64,000 nucleotides of DNA from Paludibacterium sp. B53371 (lineage in GTDB: Bacteria; Pseudomonadota; Gammaproteobacteria; Burkholderiales; Chromobacteriaceae). The translations under genes and the position numbers were made by a program. Below are positions 4,430 to 63,583 of this stretch, one piece after another. The stretch lies in NCBI RefSeq assembly GCF_018802765.1, contig NZ_CP069163.1:2986311-3050310 (forward strand), written 5' to 3'. Below the pieces are notes generated by a model. It searched no databases, was not told the origin of the DNA, and saw nothing but the letters and a program-made list of their open reading frames with translations. Each line of letters starts with the position of its first letter. Positions within the stretch are counted from its first letter, which is position 1.

Positions 4430-6436
4430 ATGTCCCTGACCCAACTGAACACGCCGCAACGCGATGCGATTCATTACCTTGACGGCCCCCTGCTGGTCCT
4501 GGCGGGAGCCGGCAGCGGCAAGACCCGCGTCATCACCTTCAAGATTGCGCACTTGATCCGTCATGCCGGCATCAGCGCGCGCAATATTGCGGCCATCACC
4601 TTCACCAACAAAGCCGCGCGCGAAATGCTGGAGCGCATCGGCAAGCTGATGAACCCTGGCGAAATCCGCGGCCTGACCGTCTCGACCTTCCACTCGCTCG
4701 GCATGCAGATGTTGCGCCAGGAAGCACCGCACCTCGGCTACAAGCCACAGTTTTCCATCCTCGACGCCTTCGATGCCGGCAAGATCATCTCGGACATCCT
4801 GCTCACCACGCACAAAGAAGAAGTGCGCAAGGTGCAGACCCAGATCTCCCTGTGGAAAAACGATTTCAAGGACCCGCAGGAAGTGCTGTTCGCGGCAGAG
4901 ACCGAATTCGACAACGTCTGTGCCAGGACTTACCTCGCCTATCAGGACACGCTGGCCGCCTACCAGGCGATGGACTTCGACGACCTGATCCGCCTGCCGG
5001 TCCAGTTGTTGCGCACCAACCCGGAAGTCCTGGAGCGCTGGCAAAACAAGCTGCGCTACTTGCTGATCGACGAATACCAGGACACCAATACCTGCCAGTA
5101 CCAGATGGTCAAGCTGCTCACCGGCGTGCGCGGCATGTTCACTGCCGTGGGGGACGACGATCAGTCCATCTACGCCTGGCGCGGCGCCAACATGGAAAAC
5201 CTGCGGCTGCTGCAGCACGATTTCCCGCGCCTGAACATCATCAAGCTGGAGCAAAACTACCGCTCTACCGCGCGCATCCTGCGCGCGGCCAACAGTGTGA
5301 TCGCCAACAACCCCAAGCTGTTCGAGAAGCAATTGTGGAGCGAACTGGGCCTGGGCGAGCCGATCCATGTCGTGCAGTGCAAGGATGAAGAGCACGAAGC
5401 CGAAGTGGTGGTACAGCGCCTGCTGGCACACAAGTTCGAGCACCGTACGTCGTTCAAGGACTATGCCATCCTGTACCGCGGCAACTATCAGGCACGCATC
5501 TTCGAACAGGCACTGCGCAACCAGCGCATCCCTTATCAGATGTCGGGCGGCCAGTCCTTCTTCGACAAGCCGGAAATCAAGGATGTGATCGCCTACATGC
5601 GGCTGATCACCAACCCGGATGACGATCCGGCCTTCATCCGCGCCCTCACCACCCCGCGGCGCGGCGTCGGTGCCGGTACGCTGGAAAAACTCGGCAGCTA
5701 TGCCGGACAGCGTCAGAAGAGCCTGTTTGCCGCGGCCCATGAAGAAGGCTTCCAGCATCAGGTGCAGGCGGCCCAGCTCGACCCCTTGCTCGATTTCTGT
5801 CGCTTCATCGTCAATCTGCAGTATCGGGCCAGCCGCGAGCCGGCCGGCCCGCTGGCACAGGAAATGCTGCAGGCCATTGGCTATGAGGCCTGGCTCTATG
5901 ACAGTGAAGAACCCCGTCCGGCGGAAAGCAAATGGAAAAACGTCATGGACATGGTGGCCTGGCTTACCAAAAAAGGGGAAGAGGACGGCAAGTCGCTCAT
6001 CGACCTGACCCAGACCATTGCGCTGATCACCATGCTGGAAGGCCGCGAAGAAGGCGAGGTGGATGCGGTCAAGATGTCCACCCTGCACGCCTCCAAAGGC
6101 CTGGAGTATCCGCATGTGTTTCTGGTCGGGGTGGAAGAAGGCATCCTGCCGCACCAGGAGTCCGTGGATAACGGCATGATCGAAGAAGAACGCCGGCTGA
6201 TGTACGTCGGCATTACCCGGGCGCAGCGCAGCCTGACCCTCAGCTACTGCGTCAAGCGCCGCCGTGCGGGGGAGTGGCTGTTCGTCGATCCCTCACGCTT
6301 CATCGACGAAATTGATCCGCAAGACATCAAGCACTTCGGCCGGCCGGGGGCCGAACCACTGGTCAGCCGCAGCGAGGGCAAGGCCAGACTGGCCAACCTC
6401 AGCGCCATGCTGGGCGCCAAGACCAGCAAGGAATAA
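4430..6436 (+). CDS. rep: ATP-dependent DNA helicase Rep
   Basis: 668 residues, close to the usual Rep length of about 670. SF1A helicase motifs occur in order: Walker A AGAGSGKTR (residues about 24-32), TFTNKAAREM, DEYQDTN (motif II), GDDDQSIYAWRGA (motif III), LEQNYRST (motif IV), MSTLHASKGLEYPHVFLVG (motif V) and YVGITRAQ (motif VI). A 3'-5' helicase that clears protein roadblocks and restarts replication forks. It is a single gene ending at a bidirectional terminator. Confidence 0.95.
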   Translation: MSLTQLNTPQRDAIHYLDGPLLVLAGAGSGKTRVITFKIAHLIRHAGISARNIAAITFTNKAAREMLERIGKLMNPGEIRGLTVSTFHSLGMQMLRQEAPHLGYKPQFSILDAFDAGKIISDILLTTHKEEVRKVQTQISLWKNDFKDPQEVLFAAETEFDNVCARTYLAYQDTLAAYQAMDFDDLIRLPVQLLRTNPEVLERWQNKLRYLLIDEYQDTNTCQYQMVKLLTGVRGMFTAVGDDDQSIYAWRGANMENLRLLQHDFPRLNIIKLEQNYRSTARILRAANSVIANNPKLFEKQLWSELGLGEPIHVVQCKDEEHEAEVVVQRLLAHKFEHRTSFKDYAILYRGNYQARIFEQALRNQRIPYQMSGGQSFFDKPEIKDVIAYMRLITNPDDDPAFIRALTTPRRGVGAGTLEKLGSYAGQRQKSLFAAAHEEGFQHQVQAAQLDPLLDFCRFIVNLQYRASREPAGPLAQEMLQAIGYEAWLYDSEEPRPAESKWKNVMDMVAWLTKKGEEDGKSLIDLTQTIALITMLEGREEGEVDAVKMSTLHASKGLEYPHVFLVGVEEGILPHQESVDNGMIEEERRLMYVGITRAQRSLTLSYCVKRRRAGEWLFVDPSRFIDEIDPQDIKHFGRPGAEPLVSRSEGKARLANLSAMLGAKTSKE

Positions 6437-6450
6437 TCCTGCACAAACAA

Positions 6451-6474
6451 AAAGCCGCCCGAAGGCGGCTTTTC
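6451..6474. terminator. bidirectional Rho-independent terminator
   Basis: Perfect 9-bp stem AAAGCCGCC / GGCGGCTTT with loop CGAA. It sits between rep and the convergent peptidase gene, and flanking A and T runs let it act on both strands. Confidence 0.9.
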
Positions 6475-6494
6475 AACCTGCTGAACCTGCTTGA

Positions 6495-7961
6495 TCAGGC
6501 ACCGTGGAACAGATACATGGCGTTCACGTCGATGGCCATTTGCGTCAGGATGTCGTTGCTCAATTGCTCGGTCAATGCATCCACCTGGCTGACGGTCTTG
6601 TCGGTAAAGGCGTCCAGCAGCTTCTGAGCCTGTTTCGGGCTCTTGGCATAAGCCTTCACGTACTCCTTCTCGAACGCCACCTGTTGTTGCTGAATGGAAG
6701 TATTCAGCTTGGCAAAGGCGCTTTCCACCATCGGCCCATACTTCGGGAAGTTCTGCATGGCCAGCGTTTGCAGCTTGTGGAGCTTCCACCAGGCCGACTT
6801 GCTGTCAGCATGGTCGGTATTGTCCTGATAAGCGGCCGGAATCTTGGCCCCTTGATAGAACGGGACATAGATGCTCAGCGTGGTCATGCCCAGCGCCAGA
6901 TACTCAACGTTGGCAATCGGCAGCGGCAGATTGGCCCGTTGTTGCAGCACATGCGATTCCTGGGCACGGAATACCGAGATCGGACGATACTTCGACTTCG
7001 GATTCTGCGTCATGTACGGCTCGTTCGGCGTGCCCTGATAATGGTTCTGCAGCGCGCTTTCCACATCCGTCACCGACAGCTTGTGCTCAGGCGTCAGGAA
7101 CACCGGTGCCTTGCCATCCTTGAAGCTTTCATTCTTCAGGCTCGGGTTGTAGATGCCCTGTACCGTCCACACACGGTTGTAGTTGTAGTAGACGTTGCTC
7201 GGACCATCTTCAGTGAAGGCGGCGAAGAAGTCGAACTTGCCATCGGTACGCGGCTTGGCCAGACCATTCTTCACGGCAAAGTCCGCCAGCCCCTTGGAGG
7301 ACATCACGTTGGCCTTGTCGTTCAGGTCGATTTCACGCAGACGGCCCTGATTGGCCGACACGAAGTACATATTGTCCGGAATGCGTACCGCCACCCACTG
7401 GTGACCGCCAGCGTTCTCGAGATACCAGGCTTCCTTCTGATCGGCAAACGCAATGCCGAAGCCCTCGCCAGAACCCTGGGTTTCAATGATCTTGCCCAGC
7501 AGCTCGACACCCTGACGGGCCGATTTGATCTGCGGCAGCAGGATGCTGGTCACTTCACTTTCCGTCAGGCCGGTCTTGTCCAGATAGGGGTCGACCTTCA
7601 GCGTCGCCTCATTGCTGTAGATGGTTTCGGTGGCGGACATCGACACGCCGGCCGAATTGAAACCGGCTTCTTCATAAGACTGGCTCTTGCCGTCAAAGTC
7701 GGGCAGACCGGTGTAGCTCATCAGATGATCCGGCATCTGATAGGTGAATTGGGATTGTACCGACTTGAACAGGAAGCCCTTCTTCAGTGCTTCGTGCTTG
7801 ATGAAGTGGATAGGGTGGTTACCCGCGCCGGAATCCACGTTGCGCCCGATCAGGATCGAACCATCGGCAGAGGCATTCTTGCCGACAATGATCGTGGTAC
7901 AAGCAAAGGTCGAAGCGCAGGACAGACCGATAACGGCCAGGGCAATTTTCTTCAACATCAT
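6495..7961 (-). CDS. secreted C69-family dipeptidase
   Basis: 488 residues from ATG 7961, which has GGGAG about 10 nt upstream; earlier in-frame ATGs have none. Signal peptide MMLKKIALAVIGLSCASTFA is followed directly by CTTIIVGKNAS. Cys21, exposed by cleavage, matches the N-terminal nucleophile of the C69 (PepD-like) Ntn-hydrolases. GRNVD and further C69 blocks such as ENAGGHQWVAVRIPDN follow. Expected to release dipeptides or hydrolyse amides in the periplasm or outside the cell. It is monocistronic, converging on rep. Substrate not determinable from sequence. Confidence 0.88.
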   Translation of the reverse strand: MMLKKIALAVIGLSCASTFACTTIIVGKNASADGSILIGRNVDSGAGNHPIHFIKHEALKKGFLFKSVQSQFTYQMPDHLMSYTGLPDFDGKSQSYEEAGFNSAGVSMSATETIYSNEATLKVDPYLDKTGLTESEVTSILLPQIKSARQGVELLGKIIETQGSGEGFGIAFADQKEAWYLENAGGHQWVAVRIPDNMYFVSANQGRLREIDLNDKANVMSSKGLADFAVKNGLAKPRTDGKFDFFAAFTEDGPSNVYYNYNRVWTVQGIYNPSLKNESFKDGKAPVFLTPEHKLSVTDVESALQNHYQGTPNEPYMTQNPKSKYRPISVFRAQESHVLQQRANLPLPIANVEYLALGMTTLSIYVPFYQGAKIPAAYQDNTDHADSKSAWWKLHKLQTLAMQNFPKYGPMVESAFAKLNTSIQQQQVAFEKEYVKAYAKSPKQAQKLLDAFTDKTVSQVDALTEQLSNDILTQMAIDVNAMYLFHGA

Positions 7962-8155
7962 GACAAATTCGCTCCCAAACGATTGGACGATCAAGCATAA
8001 TCCCGTCCGGCCGACAATCATTAACAAATAAGCAGATACTTAATTTAAGTCATGAAACTTGAACGAAATGATGGCTGTTCGCGTCTGTCAGTCCTAGAAT
8101 CGAAGCCCCTGGCGTCTTGCTGAAGCACGATTTGATCGAATCCTGTCCGCGAGAC

Positions 8156-8183
8156 AAAAAAAATGGCGTCCGTGCGGACGCCA
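8156..8183 (-). terminator. strong Rho-independent terminator, minus strand
   Basis: On the minus strand GGCGTCC-GTGC-GGACGCC-type stem (9 bp counting flanking pairs) followed by eight T residues. It lies about 190 nt beyond the cytochrome c5 stop codon, so it ends either a long 3' UTR or a separate small RNA. Confidence 0.85.
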
Positions 8184-8300
8184 GTACAAGAATGAGGAAC
8201 ATCTCTGGGTAGGGTAAGTCCACCGGGAATCACCCTAGCCGAACTAGACAGGAAACCTGGGAGCGAAACGGCGGTTCCTGCGTCATTCAGGCCAGTCATA
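8156..8300 (-). ncRNA. candidate small RNA upstream of terminator
   Basis: The roughly 190 nt between the cytochrome c5 stop (8373) and the terminator hold no convincing ORF but pair well when read on the minus strand. TAGGGT pairs with ACCCTA, and AGGAA with TTCCT. A C/U-rich single-stranded tract GUUCCUCAUUCUUGU, with UUCCUC complementary to a Shine-Dalgarno sequence, stands just before the terminator stem. This is the usual layout of an Hfq-type trans-acting sRNA, either independently transcribed or cut from the 3' UTR. The 5' end is a guess, and I do not recognise an Rfam family. Confidence 0.35.
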
Positions 8301-8336
8301 CGTACCCATGATGCCGGATGCCCCCTGTCCCGACAC

Positions 8337-8352
8337 CTGTCCTTTCAGACAG
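8337..8352. promoter_or_regulatory. imperfect lux-type inverted repeat
   Basis: CTGTCC-TTTC-AGACAG differs by one base from the CTGNCC-N4-GGNCAG consensus of CviR sites. It lies between the cytochrome c5 stop and the candidate sRNA. It could equally be a simple hairpin at the 3' end of the cytochrome message. Confidence 0.25.
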
Positions 8353-8372
8353 GCGCCGAACAGCAGGCCAGA

Positions 8373-9119
8373 TTACTTCGAATTGTTCACCATGTATTCG
8401 ATGGCCGAACGGAACTCGGCATCGCTGCCGGTATAGCCCCCCTTCGGCGGCATGGCATTCAGACCCTTGGTGGCGATCTTCTGCACTTCATCCAGACCCG
8501 GCTTCAGACGAACCGCCCAGGCAGCCTTGTCGCCGAACTTCGGTGCACCGGAGACCCCGGCCTGATGACAGGCGATACAAACCGACTCATAGATTTTCTT
8601 GCCGGTCACATTCGGATCGATGGCGGCCGTCGCTGCGGCGCCACTGGCATCCGACTTCGGCTCGGCAAACTTGGCACCGCCGGCATTGGCCATATAAGCC
8701 ACGGCACGGCCCACCTCGTCATCGGTCAGCGTGGTGTTGCCGCCCTTGGCCGGCATGGCATTAAACCCTCCCAGCGCATGCTTCAGCAGCGTGTCATAGC
8801 CCTTGGCGATACGCGCCCCCCAGGCCCCGGCATCCCCAAACTTCGGCGAGCCAAGCAAACCAGCGCCGTGACAACTGATACAGACGGCCTGATAAACCTG
8901 CTGTCCGCTGCGGCTGCCCGGCTGGCCATCACTGGCCACCGAGTCCCCTACCGGCTTCAGGCGAGCGGCAACGGCCTCATTGGTCATGACCTCGGCGTCC
9001 ACGTTGAAACCGCTGGTGGCCAACTTGGCCAGCAGAGTGATTGCTACGACAAGGAATACGACGACGCCGACCAGGACTTTGACGATCTGCCCCGTGGCCA
9101 TTCCGTTTTCATTGCTCAT
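8373..9119 (-). CDS. membrane-anchored di-heme cytochrome c5
   Basis: 248 residues from ATG 9119 (GAGG upstream); the frame runs further upstream but without a ribosome site. An N-terminal membrane anchor (residues about 12-33) is followed by two class-I cytochrome domains. Haem sites are CISCH (80-84) and CIACH (181-185), each with a distal Met in NAMPAKGG (Met122) and NAMPPKGG (Met223). This two-domain, anchored arrangement is that of neisserial cytochrome c5, which passes electrons from bc1 to terminal oxidase or nitrite reductase in the periplasm. It has its own consensus promoter upstream. Confidence 0.9.
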   Translation of the reverse strand: MSNENGMATGQIVKVLVGVVVFLVVAITLLAKLATSGFNVDAEVMTNEAVAARLKPVGDSVASDGQPGSRSGQQVYQAVCISCHGAGLLGSPKFGDAGAWGARIAKGYDTLLKHALGGFNAMPAKGGNTTLTDDEVGRAVAYMANAGGAKFAEPKSDASGAAATAAIDPNVTGKKIYESVCIACHQAGVSGAPKFGDKAAWAVRLKPGLDEVQKIATKGLNAMPPKGGYTGSDAEFRSAIEYMVNNSK

Positions 9120-9161
9120 TCGCGCCTCGCCTGAAAAATAATGACATTTAATAATTAGCCG

Positions 9162-9190
9162 ATTATACGAGAAGCATTTCCGCAAGGCAA
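9162..9190 (-). promoter_or_regulatory. sigma-70 promoter of cytochrome c5
   Basis: On the minus strand TTGCCT, a 17-bp spacer, then a perfect TATAAT. The start point would fall about 35 nt before the ATG at 9119. Confidence 0.75.
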
Positions 9191-9199
9191 AACCCCTAC

Positions 9200-9229
9200 T
9201 GGACTTGTGGGCGCGCTTTGCGATATGAT
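9200..9229 (+). promoter_or_regulatory. probable promoter of tRNA-Arg
   Basis: TGGACT (four of six), 18-bp spacer, TATGAT (five of six), placed about 20 nt before the mature tRNA 5' end. It is back to back with the cytochrome c5 promoter. Confidence 0.5.
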
Positions 9230-9249
9230 CCGCCTGCTTCACGATCAGC

Positions 9250-9326
9250 GCACCCGTAGCTCAGTTGGATAGAGTGTCGGTTTCCGAAGCCGAAGGTCAC
9301 AGGTTCGATCCCTGTCGGGTGCGCCA
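9250..9326 (+). tRNA. tRNA-Arg (anticodon CCG)
   Basis: The cloverleaf folds fully. Acceptor GCACCCG pairs with CGGGTGC, and the D-arm GCTCAGTTGG is present. Anticodon stem TCGGT/GCCGA encloses loop TTCCGAA with CCG at 9284-9286. The T-arm contains GGTTCGATCC, and the 3' CCA is encoded. It decodes CGG codons. Confidence 0.97.
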
Positions 9327-9520
9327 GTCACTGCAACGCCACGCCATACCCTCTTTTCCGGCCTCTGCGCCGACACTTCGCCCCCCCTCACCGACTCACC
9401 ATCCAGGCCCAAACTGCCAGGCCGTGCCCGCACGTCAGCGATGGGATGAAAGCGAAGAAAAGCCAGGTGCCTGGGAACCAATACAAAAGGGAGAGTCGCC
9501 TGAGTGCAGGCGAAAGAAAA

Positions 9521-9721
9521 TCAGTCAGGAGAACCGATGGTCTCGATCACGCGCTTTTGGTGGGTCCGCAGATCGATCACTTGATAAATCTCGACTTTCA
9601 CCTTGCCGCGATAGAGACGCAGCATGACTTGTGCCGCGGCGCGCGCGGCCTCTACCGTCGGATAGATCGGGCTCTTGTCATCGATACCGAATGTGTTGGA
9701 GATCAATTTCAGACGAAACAC
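9521..9721 (-). CDS. small conserved-looking hypothetical protein
   Basis: 66 residues if started at GTG 9721, which has GAGG about 7 nt upstream; an ATG at 9757 lacks a ribosome site. The protein begins FRLKLISNTFGID and is balanced in charge. A helix-like stretch (VEAARAAAQVMLRLYRGK) is followed by two strand-like segments (VKVEIYQVID, KRVIETIG), the look of a compact single-domain protein rather than a chance frame. No family recognised. It stands alone between the tRNA and the Nudix gene. Confidence 0.55.
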   Translation of the reverse strand: MFRLKLISNTFGIDDKSPIYPTVEAARAAAQVMLRLYRGKVKVEIYQVIDLRTHQKRVIETIGSPD

Positions 9722-9944
9722 TGCAAAAACCTCGCGGCGAAACCACAAAAACAGCAATCATGCCTACAGCATATCAAATGCTGATGATACCAGCGTTATA
9801 AAGTATTCTGAATGTCTGGCTGGCACCATTCGGGTAAATGCGTAAGCCACGGGATCCGGGAAGTAGAAGCCGTGATTCAGTTTAGGCACTGACGGAGAAA
9901 ATAGCTGCAGAGACTGAAGTGATTCCCCGCCCGGCGCGGACGAG

Positions 9945-9978
9945 AAACAAAACGGCGTTGCCAGATCAGGCAACGCCG
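9945..9978 (-). terminator. terminator of the Nudix gene
   Basis: Perfect 10-bp stem CGGCGTTGCC / GGCAACGCCG with loop of 6, followed on the minus strand by TTTTGTTT, 10 nt beyond the stop codon at 9989. Confidence 0.85.
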
Positions 9979-9988
9979 ACGTGCAGAA

Positions 9989-10837
9989 TCAGGGCCGGGC
10001 CTGCAAGGCCTCCAGGACATGCCGGCTTTCCGGCCCCCAATACCCCAGACGCCCCAGGCATTCCGCCGCCACCAGTGCGGCATCAATCATGAAGCGCTCT
10101 TCGATCAGCAGGGACTCAACCTCGGACAGCGACAGCAGCACGTGCTCGGCCACCTCGCCATCCTGATTACAGGGCTGAATTTCCGGCGGCAGCCAGATAT
10201 CGAAAACATGCAGCCACTCACGATGCAGCCCGCGCTGCACCGGCCTTTCTGCCAGCAGCAGGGAATGTCGCGGCACATCACGCAAGCGCTCGGCCGACAG
10301 CCCAGCCTCCTCCCAGCCCTCACGCTCTCTTGCCAGCTCGATCGACTCACCGGCCGCAACCCCGCCGCCGACCATATTATCCATGCGGTTCGGGTCGACC
10401 GCCTTGTGCGGGCTGCGTCGTCCCAGCCACATGCGTACTTCGCCATCAGGCATGCGACACAATCCGTTGAGATGTACCGCATGGCTGGTCAGGCCGAGAG
10501 GGCGAAAGGCCGCACGTTCCAGCTCGAACAGCGGCGTGCCGTCCGGCAGACAGGCCTGGAAATTTTCGTTGCGCCAGCCATTGAGCCAGCCAGCGGCATG
10601 CCAGCGCTCCGCCGCCTCTGCCAGCTGGGCGCTGACGGCCTGGTAGTCGCCCGTCGCCAGACAGACCATGCCCGCCTCCCCGACGGCAAAAAGCGGCGTC
10701 GCCTCATTGAGCAATCGCTGGCGCCAGTCGGCATTCACCCAGCCCAGGCGGGTGGCGCCAAAGTACAGAGGGGTAAAAGCGGACAAATCAACCCGCGTCA
10801 CGCGCGCGAGATAGTCAAGGACACGGTGCAAAGGCAT
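9989..10837 (-). CDS. Nudix hydrolase with DUF4743-type N-terminal region
   Basis: 282 residues from ATG 10837 (GGAG 7 nt upstream). The C-terminal half holds the Nudix box GGVAAGESIELAREREGWEEAG: the core Gly-x5-Glu-x7-Arg-Glu-x2-Glu-Glu-x-Gly is intact, but the position usually filled by a bulky residue after RE is Gly. The N-terminal 120 residues resemble the domain found in Nudix proteins related to eukaryotic thiamine pyrophosphokinase-linked hydrolases (DUF4743). Those cleave oxidised or damaged thiamine diphosphates in the few members studied; here the substrate is inferred only. It lies downstream of recD on the same strand with a 66-nt gap, so may be co-transcribed. Confidence 0.8.
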   Translation of the reverse strand: MPLHRVLDYLARVTRVDLSAFTPLYFGATRLGWVNADWRQRLLNEATPLFAVGEAGMVCLATGDYQAVSAQLAEAAERWHAAGWLNGWRNENFQACLPDGTPLFELERAAFRPLGLTSHAVHLNGLCRMPDGEVRMWLGRRSPHKAVDPNRMDNMVGGGVAAGESIELAREREGWEEAGLSAERLRDVPRHSLLLAERPVQRGLHREWLHVFDIWLPPEIQPCNQDGEVAEHVLLSLSEVESLLIEERFMIDAALVAAECLGRLGYWGPESRHVLEALQARP

Positions 10838-15886: not shown

Positions 15887-17377
15887 CTAGTCGGCGTGCA
15901 AGCGGGCTTCCAGCGTTTCGCAGATCGTCTGCAGAATCTTCAGCCGGGCGTAGTACTTATTGTTGGCTTCGACCAGCACCCAGGGAATACGCGTCGTGCT
16001 GGTGCGATCCACCATATCGCTCACCGCCAGGCGGTAGTCATCCCACTTGTCGCGATTGCGCCAGTCCTCATCGGTAATCTTGAAGCGCTTGAACCCGGTC
16101 TCTTCGCGCGCCTTGAAACGGGTGTACTGCTCCTCCTTGCTGATCGCCAGCCAGAACTTGATGACGATGATGCCGTTCTCGCTCAACTGATGCTCGAAAT
16201 CATTGATCTCGTAATAGGCCCGCATCCAGTCGGCCTCGCAGGCGAAGCCCTCCACCCGCTCCACCAGCACCCGGCCATACCAGGTCCGGTCAAAGATGCT
16301 CACCCGCCCCTTGGCCGGCACATAACGCCAGAAGCGCCACAGCCAGGGCTGGGCGCGCTCCTCTTCCGTCGGCGCAGCAATCGGCACCACATGATAGGTC
16401 CGGGCATCCAGCGCCTGGGTGATACGGCGGATGGCGCCGCCCTTGCCGGCGGCATCATTACCTTCAAACGCCAGCACCAGCGCATGCTCGGCAAAGCGCG
16501 GATGGCGGGTCAGGTGATACAGCCGCCCCTGCAGCTTGTCGATCTGTGCGCGGTATGCGTCACGCGTGGTCGGCTGATCCAGCACCAGCGCATCCAGAAT
16601 CAGCTTGTTGTCGATCGGCGCCATCAGCGGCGGCGCATTGGGCTTGCGCTTGTCGCGGGCCGCTTCTTCGGACAGGCGCCCGCGCAGCGCATTCAGAATG
16701 GTATTGCCGACCGTCAGGCTGCGGTAATTGGCATCCTCGCCATCGACAATCACCCAGGGCGCATCGGCAGTATTGGTCAGCCGGATCATGTGCTCGGCGT
16801 ACTTGCGGATCACCTCGTACTGCTCGAAGTGCTCCCAGTCGGTCTTGGTCACCCGCCAGCGGGTGGCCGGGTCCTTCTCCAGCGTCTTGAGGCGTTTCTT
16901 CTGCTTCTCGCGCGACAGGTGGAACCAGAACTTGATCACCAGTGCACCGTCCTGCGCCAGCATGTGCTCGAAATGCTGGATCTCCTGGATCTGCAGATCG
17001 AAGGCATCCCAGTCACTCTGCCCCTTCACCCGGTCGAACAGCGTGTCCGAATAGTAGGAACCGAAGAACATCCCGAGCCGCCCCTTGCCGGGCAATTCGC
17101 GCCAGAAACGCCACATCCACGGACGGGCACGCGCCTCGTCGTTGGGGGCGTCGAAGGCCACGGTGCGGATCAGGCGCGGATCCATCCACTCGTTAATCAG
17201 ATTCATGGTTTCGCCACGTCCGGCACCATCAAAACCGTGAATCAGGATCAGCACCGGAAAGTCCGGCTTCTCTTTCAGATCATATTGCGCATCCAGCAAG
17301 GCCTTGCGCAGCAGCGGTGCCTGCTCTCGGAAGGTTTCCTTGTCGACACGGTGTTCGATTTCGGCTGATTCAAACAT
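15887..17377 (-). CDS. pap: polyphosphate:AMP phosphotransferase (two-domain PPK2)
   Basis: 496 residues made of two tandem PPK2 domains. Domain 1 (about residues 10-240) has Walker-like GFDGAGRGET, in which the usual Lys is Arg. Domain 2 (about 260-490) has the canonical FEGNDAAGKGGAIRR and FDRTWYGRVLVERVEG, the active half in characterised class II enzymes. It transfers phosphate from polyphosphate to AMP, giving ADP. The ribosome site AGGGGAG precedes ATG 17377, only 18 nt after the recB stop codon, so it is probably the last gene of a recC-recB-pap transcript. Confidence 0.92.
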   Translation of the reverse strand: MFESAEIEHRVDKETFREQAPLLRKALLDAQYDLKEKPDFPVLILIHGFDGAGRGETMNLINEWMDPRLIRTVAFDAPNDEARARPWMWRFWRELPGKGRLGMFFGSYYSDTLFDRVKGQSDWDAFDLQIQEIQHFEHMLAQDGALVIKFWFHLSREKQKKRLKTLEKDPATRWRVTKTDWEHFEQYEVIRKYAEHMIRLTNTADAPWVIVDGEDANYRSLTVGNTILNALRGRLSEEAARDKRKPNAPPLMAPIDNKLILDALVLDQPTTRDAYRAQIDKLQGRLYHLTRHPRFAEHALVLAFEGNDAAGKGGAIRRITQALDARTYHVVPIAAPTEEERAQPWLWRFWRYVPAKGRVSIFDRTWYGRVLVERVEGFACEADWMRAYYEINDFEHQLSENGIIVIKFWLAISKEEQYTRFKAREETGFKRFKITDEDWRNRDKWDDYRLAVSDMVDRTSTTRIPWVLVEANNKYYARLKILQTICETLEARLHAD

Positions 17378-17395
17378 CAGGCTCCCCTTGGATAA

Positions 17396-20300
17396 TCAGG
17401 CGGCAAACAGGGCATCCAGCGCATCAAGCAGGCCCTCTGCAGGCCGGTCGCACCAGACGCCATGACCTTGCAAATCGACGCCCCTCATATAGAGATAGCG
17501 CACACCGGCAAAGCGTGCGGCAAAGTCGATACCGCGGCTGCGTAAATATCTTCGTATGGCAACGCAATAAAACAGGTACTGAAGATAATAGTGCTCGCGT
17601 GCAATCGATTGCGCCAGCCGCTCAGCGTGATAATCCGCAAGCTGTGGCCCCAGATCATTCGACTTGTAATCGATCAGATAAAAACGGCCGTCGATTTCGC
17701 AGACCAGATCAATAAACCCCTTGAGAAACCCGCGTACCTGACCGAAGTCGAGCGTGGCCGCAGCGGCACGCAGGGCAGGATGCAAACCATGACGGGCATC
17801 GCCGAGCAAAGCCTGCAGTGTCTCGGGACGCAGGCGACCGACAGGCAGGGTGAACTCCAGCTCGATCAGGCGCCGCCCAGGCTCAACCTGCGCCAGCGAC
17901 ACCCCCGGATCCAGTGGCGCGGCCAGGGTACGACACACCAGCGCATGCGCTGCTTCGGCATACTCGGCAGTAAAACCATGCGCCAGCACGATCTCGCGCA
18001 CCTGTTCCAGCGCGGGCGCGGCGAAGTCGATCTGCTCCAGTACCGCATGCAGGCACGTCCCGGCGCGAGCACCGCGCGGGAAGATCAGTTGCGGGCTTTC
18101 TGCCTCCAGCCCGAGCTGCAATTCTCCCCGATCATGATCGGGACGCTCCCGCTCCGCCCCGCCATGGTGCTGCACCAGCCCACTGAAACTGGCCACCCGC
18201 CAGGGGGTGTAGATCGGCCGCTCAATACGGGCCGCGTGATAATCCCCTGTCGCCTCGTCCGGGCGGCGCGGCAAGGCGGGCACCAGTTCGACGCCCTGCA
18301 GGGCCATGCGTGGAGACTGGCTGGCCGTCCAGCGCTGCAAATCCCCCCATACCTGAGCCCCGCTCAGGGCAGGCAACTGCTCAAGCGCAGTCTCCGCAGA
18401 CGCATGCAGCAGCCAGGCCAGCGCCGAGGTTTCCATCTGCTGCACCCAGCCCCAACTGATGTACTGCCGGTGTTCGGCCCGGGTCAGCGCCACATAGGCC
18501 AATCGCAACTTTTCGGCCAGCAACTCGCGCCGGGCCGCGGCGCGCGTGGCATCGTCCAGCAGCACCTCCGGCGTCAGACGGCTGCCCTGCTCGCCATGAC
18601 TACGCCAGAACGGCATGTCGCGCCGCTCCAGCGTGCCATCCCACAGGAAGGGACAAAACACCACCGGATACTGCAGGCCCTTGGCACTGTGAACAGTGGC
18701 GATCTTGACCAGCGAAGCATCACTTTCCAGCCGCAGCAATGCCGCCTCGCCCCCCTGAGCCTGATGGACCTGCAGCTCGAACCAGTCCAGCAGCGGCAAC
18801 ATGCCCTGCTGGGTGTCGCTGGCGTTTTGCAGCAACTCGATCAGATGCGACAGATTGGTCAGGCGCCGCTCGCCATCCGGCAAGGGCAACAACCGCTCGG
18901 CCAGAGAACAGCGGGCAAAGAAGTGGCGCCATGCCGCCATCAGACCGTGCTGCAGCCAGCGCTGATGATCCGCGGCATGCAAGGCCAGCAGGGCCTCCCA
19001 GCGACTTTCATCCTGCAGGCAGGCCGCCAGGTCGGCGGCATTGAAACCGACCAGCTCGGTCGCCAGCGCATGGCGCAGGCGCGGCTCATCGGCCGGATGC
19101 GCCCAGGCAGACAGCAACACCAGCAACTCGCGTGCCTCATGACTGGCATACACGCTCTGCTGGGTCAGCGCCACGCTGGGAATATTCAGTTCGGCCAGTG
19201 CGCTGCGCATCATTTCACCCTGACGATGGGTACTGACCAGCACGGCAATATCCCCGCCGGACAAGGGACGTTCGCCACGCTCACCACACAGCCGGGCACG
19301 CCCCTCGGCCGCCAGGGACAACAGGTGGGCGATTTCCGCGGCAGCCCCCTGTGCCGCCTGGGCTGCCGCCAGGGTCTTGCTGGCTCCCTTGGTGGTTTCG
19401 CTGAAGTCCAGCCATTGCCACTGGCACGGCGCACGGCCATCGTCGATGACCAGCCGGGTAGCCGGCCCGGCCGCCGCCACAGGCTGATAGCCGATCTCGG
19501 ACAGCACAAAGGGAGCAGGCCGGGAAAACAGGGCATTGACCGCAGCCACCAGATCGCCCTGCGAACGGCGGTTCACATCCAGCGTGTAGCGGTTGGCCGG
19601 CAGGGTATCGTTGCGGGCCTGCAGATAGGCAAAGACATCCGCGCCGCGAAAACTGTAGATCGCCTGCTTCGGATCCCCCACCAGGAACACCGGGCGACCG
19701 GCATCGATAAAGCAGTGTTTGAAAATGTGGTACTGCACCGGATCGGTATCCTGAAACTCATCGATCAGTGCCACCCGGAAGCTGCCGGCCAGCTGAGCCG
19801 CCAGCGTCGCACCGCGTGCCGGATCGCGCAGCGCGTCATATAAATCCGTCAGCAAATCATCAAAGCTGCGCGTGCGTTCCTCCCGGCGCCGTTGCGCCAA
19901 TTCCTCGGCCAGCCAGTCAATCAGATCCAGCTTGAGCCGGGTCACCTCCAGCACGGCCGCCTGCTGGTAACGATCCCAGGCGTCCAGCCAGACGCCAATG
20001 GCATCGAACGCTGCATGCGAGGGGGGAACATGCCCCTTGTTAGCCGCCTTGGCCAGGGCTGCCGGCGTCAGCTTGTCAAGCAACTTGCGCTCGGCGCTGC
20101 CAAGTAGTGGCGGCACACCGTCCACCGCCAGCCAGCGCGTCATCCATTCACTAAGCTGAGCGCGTACGGCAGCACTGTAGCTGCGTCCATTCAGCCCTTC
20201 GGCCTGCTGCAGCAAGGCCAGGGCCGCCATGCAAGCCTCGCGCTGCTGCAACAGGGCCTGCCAGCCGGCATCCAGTTCCGCGCGCGCGGTCGCCAGCCCC

Positions 20301-57933: not shown

Positions 57934-58431
57934 TTACAGCACGGCCAGCGCAGCGGCATAGTCCGGCTCATTGGCGATTTCGCTCACCAGCTCGGCATGC
58001 AGCACGCGGTTATCGGCATCCAGCACCACCACGGCACGGGCACACAGCCCGGCCAGCGGCCCCTGGGCCAGCTTGACACCGTAGTTCTGCAGGAATTCAG
58101 GGTGACGGAAGGTCGACAGATTCTTGACGTTTTCCAGTCCCTCGGCACCGCAGAAACGTTGCTGGGCGAACGGCAGGTCGGCCGAAATGCACAGCACCAC
58201 GGTATCGGCACGATCCGAGGCTTGCTGATTGAACTTGCGCACCGAGGTGGCGCAGGTCGGGGTATCGACACTGGGGAAGATATTGAGGATTTTCTTCTTG
58301 CCGGCAAAGGCCGCCAGCGACACATCGGACAGATCAGCCGCCGTCAGCGAGAAATCCGGCGCCGCCTGGCCCTTGGCCGGCAAGGAGCCCGCCACTTCAA
58401 CCGGGTTTCCCTTCAACGTAACAGTAGACAT
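57934..58431 (-). CDS. tpx: thiol peroxidase
   Basis: 165 residues from ATG 58431 with AAGGA upstream. Atypical 2-Cys peroxiredoxin: peroxidatic Cys60 in [15 protein letters not shown] and resolving Cys94 in [12 protein letters not shown], both on Tpx numbering. Begins [14 protein letters not shown]. Thioredoxin-dependent removal of alkyl hydroperoxides and H2O2. It lies downstream of crcB on the same strand across a 94-nt gap. Confidence 0.95.
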
Positions 58432-58525
58432 TGCGCAATCCTTCAGTTTGTTGTGGTGATCTGCTGAAGTTTGCGCCGCCCCCGGCAAAAAGCAACCCTT
58501 TATCCAATACGGTTATCGCAAAAAA

Positions 58526-58903
58526 CTATTTCAGCGACTGAACCGTGGCCATGCCCAGCAGCGTCATGAGCAGCGAACCGCTGACATGCAAGGCGATGGC
58601 GCCGAAAGCCCACCAGAGTCGCCCCTGTTGCAACAGCGTCGTGGTTTCGGCTGAAAAGGTGGAAAACGTCGTCAGGCCACCGAGAAAGCCGGTGATCACC
58701 ATCAGCCGCCACTGCGGCGGCAACTCGGGATGGCCGGCAAAGAAAGCGACCGCCACCCCGATCAGATAGCCGCCGAGCAAATTCGCCGCCAGCGTCCCCA
58801 GCGGCAAAGTCGGAAACAGGTGATTGAGCTGCAGCCCCAGCCCCCAGCGCAGCAGACACCCGAACGAACCACCCAGCGCGATGGCCAGCATCGAATACCC
58901 CAT
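58526..58903 (-). CDS. crcB: fluoride ion channel CrcB/Fluc
   Basis: 125 residues, four membrane helices. Signature blocks are [12 protein letters not shown] in TM1, [17 protein letters not shown] in TM2 and [17 protein letters not shown] with the broken TM3 (Phe-rich FSTFS) lining the fluoride pore. Works as an antiparallel dimer. Here its ATG shares a base with the stop codon of the SMC-like gene (TGATG), so it is the third gene of a coupled operon and has no fluoride riboswitch directly in front of it. Confidence 0.93.
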
Positions 58904-61728
58904 CAGCGCTCTCCTTCGGCGTGCTCACTGCGACCATCCACCCGGCGGCGGGTCTGCAGGATCGGCGGGGCCCAGACTTCGCCCGGCCGCTTCTTGCGCG
59001 TCGCCAGCGTCAGCTCGGACGGCGCAAAAATATTGATATTGTGGGTGTTCGGCGTGGTGATCAGATACTGCGCCTCGGTCGCCTTGAGGAAACCCGCCAC
59101 CCGGTCGATATTGAAGATATCCAGATGGGCGAAGGGCTCATCGATGAACACGAAGCCGGACGGATTGGCTTCATCCATCATCAGGGCGATCAGCAGGATC
59201 AGCGATTTCATCACCTGCTGACCACCGGAGGCCTCGCCGTCATTCATGCCCATCATGCCCTTCTGGTCGAAATTGAAGCGCAAGGCCAGACCAGCCTGTG
59301 CCAGCACGGCATCGTCATTCTCCAGTTGCGGCAGCTCCACCTCGACGCCGATGCCGGCCAACTCGCCCAGACGGCGGACATTCTGGCCATAGGCCCGCAC
59401 CGTGGCACGCAGCTTGTTGATATAGGCGGCGCGGGCGTCACCGGTCAGCGCACTGGCACGATCCACTTCCTGCTGACGGCGCTGATGCTCACGTGCCAGC
59501 TGTGCCAGGTCGTCAAGCAGCTTGTCCTTGAGCGACAACACCGTCTCGTCGGTTTCCCAGTCACCACTTTGCAGACGCTCCTGCAGATAGTTGAGCTGAT
59601 GACGGGCATCGGCGGCACTGTCGTACTCGTCCAGCAGGGCCTCGACCCGTGCGGGCGCCAGCGCCCCATCCGGCAGGCGGGCCGCCCCCTCGCGCAACTC
59701 CAGCAGCAGGCGGCGGACCTGACGACGGCTGCCATCGACCTGGCCGCGCAATGCGGCCAGTTGCGCCAGGCCATCCTGCTCGCGCTGGCACACCCGGTCA
59801 TGCGCCAGACGGGCATCGCTATAGCGCTGGTCGGCGGCCGATTTTTCCTGCTGGGCCTCTGCCAGCTGTCCGCCCAACCTTGCCACGGCCTCCTGCAGGC
59901 CGAGCAATTGCTGCGCCAGGGCCGCAAACTCTTCGCTGCGGGCATCCAGGGCGGCAATGGCATCCATGCCGCCGAGATACTCGGCCAGCGCCGCCGCTTC
60001 GGCACTCAGCGCCACCAGCCGCTCCTCGTGAGCCAGCACCTGCTGGTTGAGCTGCCGCAGCGACTCGCGCAGCGCCAGCAGACGCGACTGACGCGCCCCC
60101 TCGCCAAACGCGTACTCGTGCGGCGCCACACCGATATGCCGTGCGCCGCGCCGCTCGCGGAAATAACCTTCGCGGGTAATCCAGTCGCCGTCGACCTGTT
60201 CGGCCGCCGCGACGTTCTCCACCCTGGTCACCTGCCCCAGCTGGCGATACAGCCAGTCCGGCGCCGCCGCCGAAAAACGCAGCACTTCCAGCACACTGCC
60301 CGGCCTTGCCTTCGGGGCCTGCTCGCGCTCATGGACCAGGAAGTGACGGTAGCGCAAACGCTCTGCCAGCTGCCAGGCGGCACGCCGGTCTTCTGCCCGC
60401 TCCAGCAACACCACATGGCGGTAGGGACGCAGCAGCGCCTCGACCGCGCCCTGCCAGCCGGCATCCAGCACCTCGACAATCTCCGACAGCATGCAATGGC
60501 GGATATTGGCTTCATCCAATGCCGCGCGGAACTGCCGCACCTCATCCGGCGCCCGGCCGCGGCCGATCTCCAGCGCCTCGACATGCTGGCTCATCTCGCT
60601 GCGCTGCTGCTTCATGGCACGCAGGGCATCCCGCACCGCTTCACTGTCAGCACGCAAGGCCGCCAGTTTCTGCGCCAGGGCGCCGGCATCTTCACCATAC
60701 TGCTTGCCGGCCAGGGCCTGCAGTCGGTCACGCTCTTTCAACTGCCCCTGCACCGCGGCCACCTCGGCCTTCAGGGCGACAAACTGATCCTGCAGGTGCT
60801 GACGCTGCGTTTCAGCCGCCTCGCGGGCTTCGGCAGCGCTTTGCTCGGCCTGCAGCAGCTTCTGTACCAGATCCAGACTGTCGCCGTGCTCCTTCTCCGC
60901 CACGCGCAGAGCGCGCAGCTGGCTGCGGTAGCCCTGCCACAGCGAGGCAAAGCCAGCCCGGGCGTCCAGATGGCTCAGCACCGGCAGCGCCTGATCGCGG
61001 ATCAGCTCGATGCGTTCGGCCAGCTGCCGCCACTCGACATAGCGGTTGGCGCGGGCACGCATGGTTTCCGCCCGGGCCTCCAGCGCCTCCTCCTGACGGG
61101 TCAGGGCCTCCAGTTCCAGCTCGGTGGCTTTTTGCTCGTCGCGGGCACGCTGATAGTTGTCCAGCACGTCCTTGTCGCCGAACACCTGAAACACCAGGTC
61201 CAGCAGTTGCCGCGGCGAGTACTCGGTCAGCTTGTCGGTATCGCCCTGCTCCAGCGCCAGCACCTCGGCCACCGCCGAGGTCAGACCGGCGACTTCCAGC
61301 TGGCGTCGGTATTCCTGCACCCCCAGCCATTGCGCACGCCCTTCGGCCTCCTCCAGTGACACATCGCCCTCGAGGATGGCGTAATGGCGCACCCAGTCGC
61401 CACCCTGCTTGCGGATGCGGCACAACAGCGTGACGGTCTCGCTGACGATCGGAAAGAAGGGCGTCGGATAAAGGCCGCCGGACAACCGGCGCGGGTTATC
61501 CACCACCCCGCGCAGAAAGGCGAAGGCTTCGCGGTTGTTGCGCACATAGCGTTTGTAGTCGCGCTTGCCGGAACACTTGATCGCCAGCAGGGTACGCATG
61601 GCATCCAGCAGGGTGGTCTTGCCCGAGCCGTTGGGCCCGATGATGGTGACAATCTGGGCATCGAGCGGCACAGACAGCCGCTGCCAGAAGTCCCAGTGCA
61701 CCATTTCTACCGATTTCATCTGGAACAT
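58903..61728 (-). CDS. SMC/MukB-like ATPase (MksB/JetC type)
   Basis: 941 residues. N-terminal head [20 protein letters not shown] (Walker A at residues 31-38), then long coiled-coil arms rich in Ala, Glu, Gln and Arg (about 200-430 and 550-760). A hinge-like middle carries [21 protein letters not shown] and [14 protein letters not shown], and the C-terminal head has signature [12 protein letters not shown] (about 832-843) and Walker [13 protein letters not shown] (about 859-870). A DNA-loop-extruding SMC complex is expected, of the Mks/Wadjet kind. Starts on the TGATG junction with its MukE-like partner and ends on another with crcB. No kleisin or nuclease gene adjoins. Confidence 0.85.
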
Positions 61729-62399
61729 CAGTCGCCCTCCACCGAGTCATCTGCAGCCTGCGGCGTCAGCGCCTGACGGCGACCAAGCACATCGGCCAGC
61801 GCCCCTTCGATGATGCGTGGCGCCATCTGGCTGTAATCGATCATCAAATCCAGCATCGGCCCTTCCAGCAGCATGCGATTGCGCCGGATGACAAAGCCCA
61901 GGTTGGCCAGACGCCCCAGGTTGGCATTGAAACGGGTCCGTCCGCCCAGCGCCTTGCCGAAGTCGGCATAAAGCGCATCCTCCGACACCCCGGTAGAAAC
62001 GGTCTCGCCGGTTTCCACCGGCTTCTGCGCACCGAACATATCACCCTGCCCTTCGCGGCCGGCTTCAACCCGGGCAATTTGTCGCTCGCGCTTGGGCAGG
62101 ATGATCTGTGCCCACAGGATGACCAGCAGGGCCACGCCATCGCGCGGCAAACCCAGATTGTTATTGACCCAACTGTCGCCGGCGCCGAATACCGGTTCGA
62201 TCATCGGCGGCAGCAAGGCGACCGCAATATGCTCGGCATAGGGGTTCTCGACCAGCCGCAAGCCGACCTCGGCCAGACGGCGATCCAGCTCGTTGCGAAA
62301 AATGTCATCCAGCAGCGCTCGGCGCGCCAGCGGATCGCTGCGACTCACCACGCGATGCGCCAGCAGGCGCGCAGTCAGGGTTTTAAGTTCGATATCCAT
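61728..62399 (-). CDS. MukE/MksE/JetB-like partner of the SMC ATPase
   Basis: 223 residues. The N-terminal half is helical (RRALLDDIFRNELDRRLAEVGLRLVENPYAEHIAVALLPP), then LPRDGVALLVILWAQIILPKRERQ. The C-terminal winged helix, ALYADFGKALGGRTRFNANLGRLANLGFVI, ends in LEGPMLDLMIDYSQMAPRIIEGAL. Size, placement directly ahead of the SMC gene and winged-helix content fit the KITE-type subunits MukE/MksE/JetB. The assignment rests on context and fold feel rather than strong identity. Upstream lies a 230-nt gap and then the type III secretion genes in the other direction. Confidence 0.7.
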   Translation of the reverse strand: MDIELKTLTARLLAHRVVSRSDPLARRALLDDIFRNELDRRLAEVGLRLVENPYAEHIAVALLPPMIEPVFGAGDSWVNNNLGLPRDGVALLVILWAQIILPKRERQIARVEAGREGQGDMFGAQKPVETGETVSTGVSEDALYADFGKALGGRTRFNANLGRLANLGFVIRRNRMLLEGPMLDLMIDYSQMAPRIIEGALADVLGRRQALTPQAADDSVEGD

Positions 62400-62629
62400 G
62401 TGATCCAGGGCAGGAATGAAAAGGCGTCAGATGCCCGCGAGGCGGCGGGCAGAGAGGCCGGCCGCTTCATAGAAAGCGCAATTATTTCACAGCTTGCGTG
62501 TATCCCGAAATTTCCCCTCCCGGCCGGCCGGCTGCCTGTTGTCGATTCCGCAAAGCCAAAGGGGAAAGACAACAGCTTGGTCCGGTCGACCTGCCTACGA
62601 TGCATGACATCAACAGAGGCGGATATCTC

Positions 62630-62941
62630 ATGAAAACGACAACGAATCCTTTCGAGCAGATGACCGAGCTGATGCTGCAACTCAAGGCCCAGCTCGCCGA
62701 ACAAATGGCGCTGACCAGACGCATCAAGGAGGAAATCGGCCTGCTGGAACAACGAGCCCCGGCCGACGCCAAGGCTCGCGACACCCTGGTTCGTCTGGGC
62801 TCGCTGATGAAGGAAGAAATTGGCCCCAAGCAGCAGAAGCTGACCGCCCGGGCACAGGCCATGAAGTCCGCCCTTTCGGGCACCGATTCCCCAACGGCGG
62901 CCACCAGCGGCAAAAACAAGCCGCGCCGCTCTTTTATTTGA
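62630..62941 (+). CDS. SseA/CesAB-like type III secretion chaperone
   Basis: 103 residues from ATG 62630 (GAGG about 10 nt before). Mostly one long amphipathic helix pair (FEQMTELMLQLKAQLAEQMALTRRIKEEIGLLEQ, then DTLVRLGSLMKEEIGPKQQKLTARAQAMKSAL) with a basic tail GKNKPRRSFI. Length, coiled-coil character and position immediately before an EspA/SseB-like gene match SseA, the cytoplasmic chaperone of the SPI-2 translocon filament protein. Sequence identity to SseA is low, so the call is by context. 18 nt separate it from the next gene. Confidence 0.6.
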   Translation: MKTTTNPFEQMTELMLQLKAQLAEQMALTRRIKEEIGLLEQRAPADAKARDTLVRLGSLMKEEIGPKQQKLTARAQAMKSALSGTDSPTAATSGKNKPRRSFI

Positions 62942-62959
62942 CCCACCAGGAGTTATGCC

Positions 62960-63583
62960 ATGCAAGTCACTCCCCCGTATTACAGCGACAGCCAGTTCAA
63001 TCCTCCCACGACCAACACCGCTGATGTCTCAGCGGCACAGGATACGAAGTATGCGTCGCTGGCCGACCTGATCAATGCCCAGAGCTTCAACCCGGTCATG
63101 GCCTTCTATGAAGCCATGAACTCGGTACTGGAATTTGCCGGCCAGATGGTCATCCTGCAATCGCAACTGATCCAGCAACACAATCAGGAAGCCGCCAATA
63201 CCAAACAGGCCTCGGCCAACCTAGGCGCGACCATCAATGGCATGACTGACGCCAACAGCACGGCTGACCTGCCTTCTGACGTCAAGAACACCTACGAGCA
63301 GTACGATGTTGTCATCACCTGGGACGGCGGCTCGGGCTCCATCGATGACTATCTGAAAGCCATTGGCAAGGAGGATGGCAAGGACCTCGACAAGGAGCAG
63401 CTGACCCGCATCCAGTCGGCACTGGACAACACTTCGGACCAGTACAGCAGCCTGTCTTCGCAAGACCAGATGAAGACTCAGCAACAGATGCAGACCTATG
63501 CCACGGCCTCCAGCAACATGACCACGGCACTGAACAACGTCAAGACCATGCTCGACGCCATCGTGCGCAACATGGGCGTGTAA
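62960..63583 (+). CDS. EspA/SseB-family type III secretion filament or translocon protein
   Basis: 207 residues, AGGAG upstream. Low-complexity polar N-terminus without Sec signal, hydrophobic helix AFYEAMNSVLEFAGQMVILQSQL (about 49-71), polar middle with VVITWDGGSGSIDDYLKAIG, and a long C-terminal coiled coil (SSQDQMKTQQQMQTYATASSNMTTALNNVKTMLDAIVRNMGV). The order helix, polar insertion and C-terminal coiled coil is that of EspA and SseB, which form the extracellular sheath or translocon platform of SPI-2/LEE type systems. Flanked by chaperones of both classes. Confidence 0.78.
   Translation: MQVTPPYYSDSQFNPPTTNTADVSAAQDTKYASLADLINAQSFNPVMAFYEAMNSVLEFAGQMVILQSQLIQQHNQEAANTKQASANLGATINGMTDANSTADLPSDVKNTYEQYDVVITWDGGSGSIDDYLKAIGKEDGKDLDKEQLTRIQSALDNTSDQYSSLSSQDQMKTQQQMQTYATASSNMTTALNNVKTMLDAIVRNMGV

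Follow-up and report, generated by a model that had tools for sequence, protein, structure and literature searches.

A probable JetABC gene set in Paludibacterium sp. B53371 with its kleisin gene 9.2 kb away from its partners

We analysed a stretch of 64,000 nucleotides from the chromosome of Paludibacterium sp. B53371 (hereafter the window), in which genes for a KITE subunit and an ATPase of the structural maintenance of chromosomes (SMC) type are followed by crcB, and in which no kleisin gene is found. A preliminary description of this DNA had left three possibilities: a minimal SMC system, a kleisin encoded elsewhere, or a kleisin lost when a secretion island arrived. The second is what we find. 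An intact kleisin-like gene, jetA, lies on the same chromosome 9.2 kb from the KITE gene and on the opposite strand, and the kleisin appeared to be absent because the window, which ends at 3050310, stops 7.6 kb short of it. The genome thus probably carries a complete JetABC (MksBEF-like) gene set, in which jetA has been displaced through a type III secretion cluster and rearrangement, and which most likely serves as an accessory condensin. The genes of the window row are as follows.

61728..62399, minus strand: jetB/mksE-like gene for a KITE subunit of 223 residues (open reading frame and predicted fold)
58903..61728, minus strand: jetC/mksB-like gene for an SMC ATPase of 941 residues (SMC_N E 2.7e-16; PADLOC JetC 2.1e-22, partial)
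58526..58903, minus strand: crcB fluoride channel gene, 125 residues (NCBIfam fluoride efflux transporter CrcB 4e-53)

The displaced jetA and its place in relatives

The jetA gene of the window's genome (G000:C1:3057872-3059128(+)) has 418 codons, with TTG as its listed start, and its chromosome was matched by the profile of the gene upstream of jetB with an E value of 7.9e-197. It stands directly after obgE and head to head with the KITE gene, whose start codon is 9,162 nt away. Between the two are SseB-like, SseC-like and TPR chaperone-like genes, a 240-residue open reading frame that no Pfam model matched, a SnoaL-like gene, ispB, rplU and rpmA (which we take to be these genes from their sequences) and obgE. 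On the 3' side of jetA follow a sctQ-like gene (SepQ 0.003, a weak match) and then sctN, placing jetA between obgE and the other half of the secretion cluster. At the level of gene content the kleisin is therefore neither absent nor lost, and the locus no longer stands out as breaking the rule by which SMC complexes of this class have a kleisin.

In relatives the same gene is the upstream neighbour of the KITE gene. A search of named genomes gave 38 loci (one, L068, ends inside jetC), and in 36 of them a gene of about 420 residues, in the same orientation, lies no more than 1 kb upstream of the KITE gene. The gap is within 60 nt in 24 of those 36, and the five widest gaps span 517-936 nt, where another open reading frame may lie between. 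A MukF/JetA-like gene adjoining the locus in relatives is one of two findings that the preliminary description had said would make the arrangement in the window incidental. The two loci without an adjoining jetA are both from Paludibacterium (L032 and L031) and were taken to be the same genomes as G040 and G042 of the family set described below; the counts from named loci and from the family overlap.

Among 61 genomes of the GTDB family, jetC is found at E <= 1e-20 in 51, and jetA in the same 51. In 48 of these jetA lies upstream of the KITE gene in the same orientation, with a gap of at most about 0.5 kb (the gap in G046, at a contig end, was ignored); the three exceptions are the window's own genome (G000), G040 and G042, which we call the split trio. 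The congeners G039, G041 and G043 have obgE-jetA-jetB-jetC uninterrupted. The overlap of 1 nt between jetB and jetC is kept in 50 of the 51 loci measured (G057, with its pieces on two contigs, was left out), and because of this it is not a matter of chance. The exception, G427, lies outside the family and is the one further SMC relative among 368 other genomes of a class sample; the class-wide samples scored few candidates (at most two per genome in that of G427), and distant relatives may be missed. Among the titles listed in searches of open-licence papers, none concerned this locus.

Identity of the three subunits

The SMC protein is recognised from its sequence as a Wadjet JetC. Its Walker A motif (GPNGSGKT) is at 31 and its Walker B-type motif, FIDEP, ends at 865. 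The protein matches SMC_N and, in part, the PADLOC JetC model, and aligned with a type I JetC profile over 864 columns with a probability of 99.6; control pairings with ObgE in the same kind of profile comparison gave 0.0 and 0.1. For the other two subunits the assignment comes from predicted structures, with the identity of matching chains in complex entries judged from entry titles and lengths. The KITE model has JetB and MukE as its top matches, in agreement with a JetB subunit, and the model of the jetA product is MukF/JetA-like, with matches of moderate strength to MukF and Wadjet-II entries. Sequence profiles did not recover either protein. The JetB profile reached an unconvincing 1.5 against type I JetB, and a search of PDB profiles was likewise without success. 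For jetA, nothing convincing came from Pfam, PADLOC and NCBIfam scans of three homologues, from a Pfam scan of 24 homologues, from a PDB profile search or from comparison with 15 type I JetA sequences. PADLOC JetA1 matched one homologue at 0.0029 with JukB at the same value, and neither was counted. The possibility of an ScpA-type partner was also considered, and neither jetA nor 23 homologues gave an ScpA match. The KITE and kleisin proteins belong to a branch that the Pfam, NCBIfam and PADLOC models tried do not securely recognise; both are too diverged for these models, and annotation by them alone would miss both.

Compared with known systems, the locus shares with Wadjet (JetABCD/MksBEFG) the kleisin-KITE-SMC gene order seen in relatives, a JetD gene downstream in some of them, a JetC recognised by PADLOC and JetA- and JetB-like predicted folds. 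It differs in the displaced jetA, in having no JetD that we could find in the window's genome, in the insecure recognition of jetA and jetB by PADLOC, and in a shorter JetC (941 residues against 1107-1223 in 13 type I loci). With MukBEF of Escherichia coli it shares a kleisin model closest to MukF entries and a KITE model also close to MukE, but the window SMC scores 14.8 bits with the MukB N-terminal model PF04310, below the cut-off of 23, and the genome keeps ScpA as well. A kleisin, a KITE subunit and a MukB-like SMC without a nuclease are the composition of an MksBEF-type complex, and the resemblance to MksBEF of Pseudomonas aeruginosa is one of composition, both being MukB-like complexes that lack a nuclease and coexist with a canonical SMC complex; the operon here differs in being split by a secretion cluster.

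JetD and the function of the complex

The preliminary description had noted that no TOPRIM nuclease accompanies the SMC genes, and this holds for the whole genome as far as we searched, with no match to the family JetD profile (A2), PF09983 or PF09664. None of the six congeners matches the family profile either. In G042 a canonical JetD_C match is present in two pieces (C49:53340-53681 and C142:21256-21591), perhaps belonging to a second, complete Wadjet system.

Elsewhere jetD is found 3' of jetC. This is the case in six of the 38 named loci (two Aquitalea, two Silvimonas and two Sulfuricella-type contigs, a third Aquitalea locus being without it), and in the distant genome G427. Two single JetD sequences were recognised by PADLOC JetD at 7.4e-14 (the Silvimonas gene) and 2.4e-11, and the JetD profile reached only 5.1 against type I JetD. 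Within the family, JetD profile matches occur at E <= 0.01 in 23 of the 61 genomes, and in 14 of the 51 with jetC the gene is beside it (G001-G008, G045, G047, G030, G031, G018 and G025); in G046 the contig ends inside jetC and the next gene is not visible. Two further matches are weak, one in G060 (0.007) and the other an additional match in G006 (8.3e-5).

Several other states of the locus were observed. In G017 jetC is followed directly by what remains of a JetD gene (L140 2235-2414), about 60 codons that include a stop; an alignment of 65 positions shows 68% identity with the G018 JetD. In G038 and G044 jetD stands alone between obgE and tpx with no jetABC match (L155 9090-10361 and L156 8837-10090), and the G044 copy contains stops. 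Five Chromobacterium-group genomes have jetD away from jetABC (G011, G014, G015, G016 and G023), and in the two of these places that were read (L151 9083-10300 in G023 and L152 8592-9848 in G014) there is no jetABC nearby, and a miaB-like gene, identified by eye, is among the neighbours. Since distant relatives have JetD, an ancestral JetABCD with repeated loss of JetD would be the simplest reading. We tentatively suggest, with somewhat less than even confidence, that the obgE-tpx locus is a natural series leading from a Wadjet defence complex to a housekeeping condensin in this poorly recognised kleisin/KITE branch, with stages represented by JetABCD, JetABC with a JetD remnant, JetABC, JetD elsewhere, the kleisin elsewhere and JetD stranded alone. 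Within this small bacterial family, species with and without the nuclease at a Wadjet-type locus can be set against one another, and the proposed transition from plasmid defence to chromosome organisation would thereby become open to test.

From the gene set and the predicted folds we infer that JetA, as the kleisin, would close JetC dimers, that JetB would bind to them, and that the complex may use ATP to move along DNA or to extrude it in loops. Without JetD it would not cut DNA, and for that reason its most likely role is that of an accessory condensin beside Smc-ScpAB, by analogy with MksBEF of P. aeruginosa. Two papers bear on the analogy, one giving that complex a role in the chromosome (PMC7485682) and the other identifying MksG as a nuclease (PMC10123090). 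ScpA is present in all 61 family genomes (of the Smc-ScpAB subunits, the search covered ScpA), and because it is also in the window's genome JetABC is taken as a second SMC complex. The single ScpA match there, at 2581636, is far from the locus, which speaks against ScpA as the partner of this SMC protein. The likeliest reading is a condensin-like second SMC complex that would have been left after the loss of JetD from a Wadjet-type locus.

JetABC could instead still act against plasmids, by recognising small circles and recruiting a nuclease encoded elsewhere, or by blocking them without cutting. The relatives that keep JetD beside jetC (14 of 51 in the family and six of 38 named loci, partly the same genomes) speak for this, as do the five Chromobacterium-group genomes in which JetD is away from jetABC and action in trans is conceivable. 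We consider it unlikely, as none of the three profiles found a JetD-like gene in the window's genome and as the locus has, in most of the relatives seen, a constant place on the chromosome after obgE, in contrast to a mobile defence island.

A second alternative is that the secretion island broke up jetA, jetB and jetC and that they are now remnants without function. The operon is split, no nuclease was found, and ten of the 61 family genomes (one 61% and one 80% complete) have no jetC match. However, each of the three has an open reading frame in the split genomes (the G042 jetA crosses a contig break), and dN/dS lies at about 0.04-0.10 (jetA 0.076-0.097, jetB 0.043-0.069 and jetC 0.070-0.098 within the trio). 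These low values partly reflect the high dS of the trio, since the three genes gave 0.065-0.084 in the contiguous pair G039-G041 and 0.15-0.31 in three Chromobacterium-group genomes. Dividing jetA distances by jetC distances gives a mean of 1.00 within the trio, against 1.03 among the remaining genomes and 1.19 for comparisons across the two sets. From the dN/dS values and these ratios, the separated jetA appears to evolve like a working partner, perhaps with a faster phase on the branch leading to the trio, and functionless remnants are very improbable.

The third alternative makes crcB a functional part of the SMC module, through translational coupling and a role in chromosome condensation, as the preliminary description had suggested. 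It could point to the TGATG overlap in the window and to crcB lying 3' of jetC in all three split-clade genomes. Yet crcB itself is found in 44 of the 61 family genomes and is seen beside jetC in three, all of the split trio (in G046 the position is not visible), and the two of the 38 named loci in which it follows jetC, L031 and L032, belong to that trio. The 1-nt overlap occurs in the window only, with gaps of 10 and 11 nt in the other two genomes; the NCBIfam family is named as a fluoride efflux transporter; and the window's genome has a second crcB at G000:C1:1208154-1208492. With crcB unlinked to the SMC gene in most genomes, the other finding that the preliminary description had said would make the arrangement incidental, the coupling looks incidental, and a functional role for crcB in the module is extremely unlikely. 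We give virtually no credence to a two-subunit SMC system working without a kleisin, which has nothing left in its favour beyond the 64-kb window lacking the gene and is contradicted by a jetA that is intact, under purifying selection and MukF-like in its model.

The split and the gene neighbourhood

The following features complete the locus in the window.

57934..58437, minus strand: tpx thiol peroxidase gene, anchoring the obgE-jetABC(D)-tpx locus on its downstream side (NCBIfam thiol peroxidase 3.1e-76)
62400..62629: divergent intergenic stretch of 230 nt, the jetB-side breakpoint where the secretion cluster parts jetB from jetA (sequence)
62630..63583, plus strand: first part of the type III secretion block, with a 103-residue gene in the sseA position and then an SseB/EspA-like gene
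62960-63583, plus strand: SseB/EspA-like gene (EspA 2.4e-15; NCBIfam SseB 1.4e-17, under the curated cut-off)

The open reading frames and sequence agree with the preliminary description in the row of KITE gene, 941-residue SMC gene and crcB joined by two TGATG junctions, and the coordinates confirm its 230-nt gap to a divergent type III secretion gene (ATG at 62630) and tpx downstream. The 103-residue gene has no Pfam match and its sseA label comes from position alone; no sigma-70-like site was found in the 230-nt gap upstream of jetB. The tpx gene is also downstream of the locus in G039, G040, G041, G042, G012, G013, G017, G020, G038 and G044, a tally to be read with the fact that most other locus stretches end before tpx could appear.

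The junctions fit an involvement of the secretion island, as had been suggested, with the kleisin displaced rather than lost. The arrangements of jetA next to the sctQ-like gene and of sse-type genes before jetB are common to G000, G040 and G042. The simplest account is that the secretion cluster inserted once between jetA and jetB, in the common ancestor of this Paludibacterium clade, and that a later inversion with one end inside the cluster turned jetA and jetBC head to head; both events and their order would be reconstructions from the present gene arrangement. In L089 the type III secretion genes form two blocks (6271-10102 and 16137-19075) flanking ispB-rplU-rpmA-obgE-jetA, and the last gene of the jetB-side block is separated from ispB by about 1.6 kb in G000 but by tens of kb in G040.

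We also considered whether the jetBC genes of the split clade had been replaced horizontally, and do not claim it, as the trees do not settle it. The JetC of the trio is 75-78% identical to genera g2, g3 and g9, as against 71-73% to the congeners G039, G041 and G043 (an 83% match to the shortened jetC gene of G046 was left out of the former range). In trees made, like the JetA/JetC distance comparison, with FastTree, JetA groups all six congeners (0.97) and JetB groups five of them weakly (0.35), and in the JetC tree the congeners are not grouped, with a fork of 0.99 between G039/G041 and the trio. A separate, quick JetC tree did not decide between the readings either.

Related fragments were seen further afield. 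A distant genome (L154, G088:C71) has a jetA relative in four separate matches together with a JetD fragment, apparently broken. A plasmid search, which yielded no jetA match, gave two Variovorax records with half-length jetC matches (L198 7025-8488 and L199 7046-9597), each beside an IS1071 transposase. The gene next to the jetC relative in L199, annotated as hypothetical, is a JetD relative (36% identical to the Sulfuricella-type JetD, E 4e-46).
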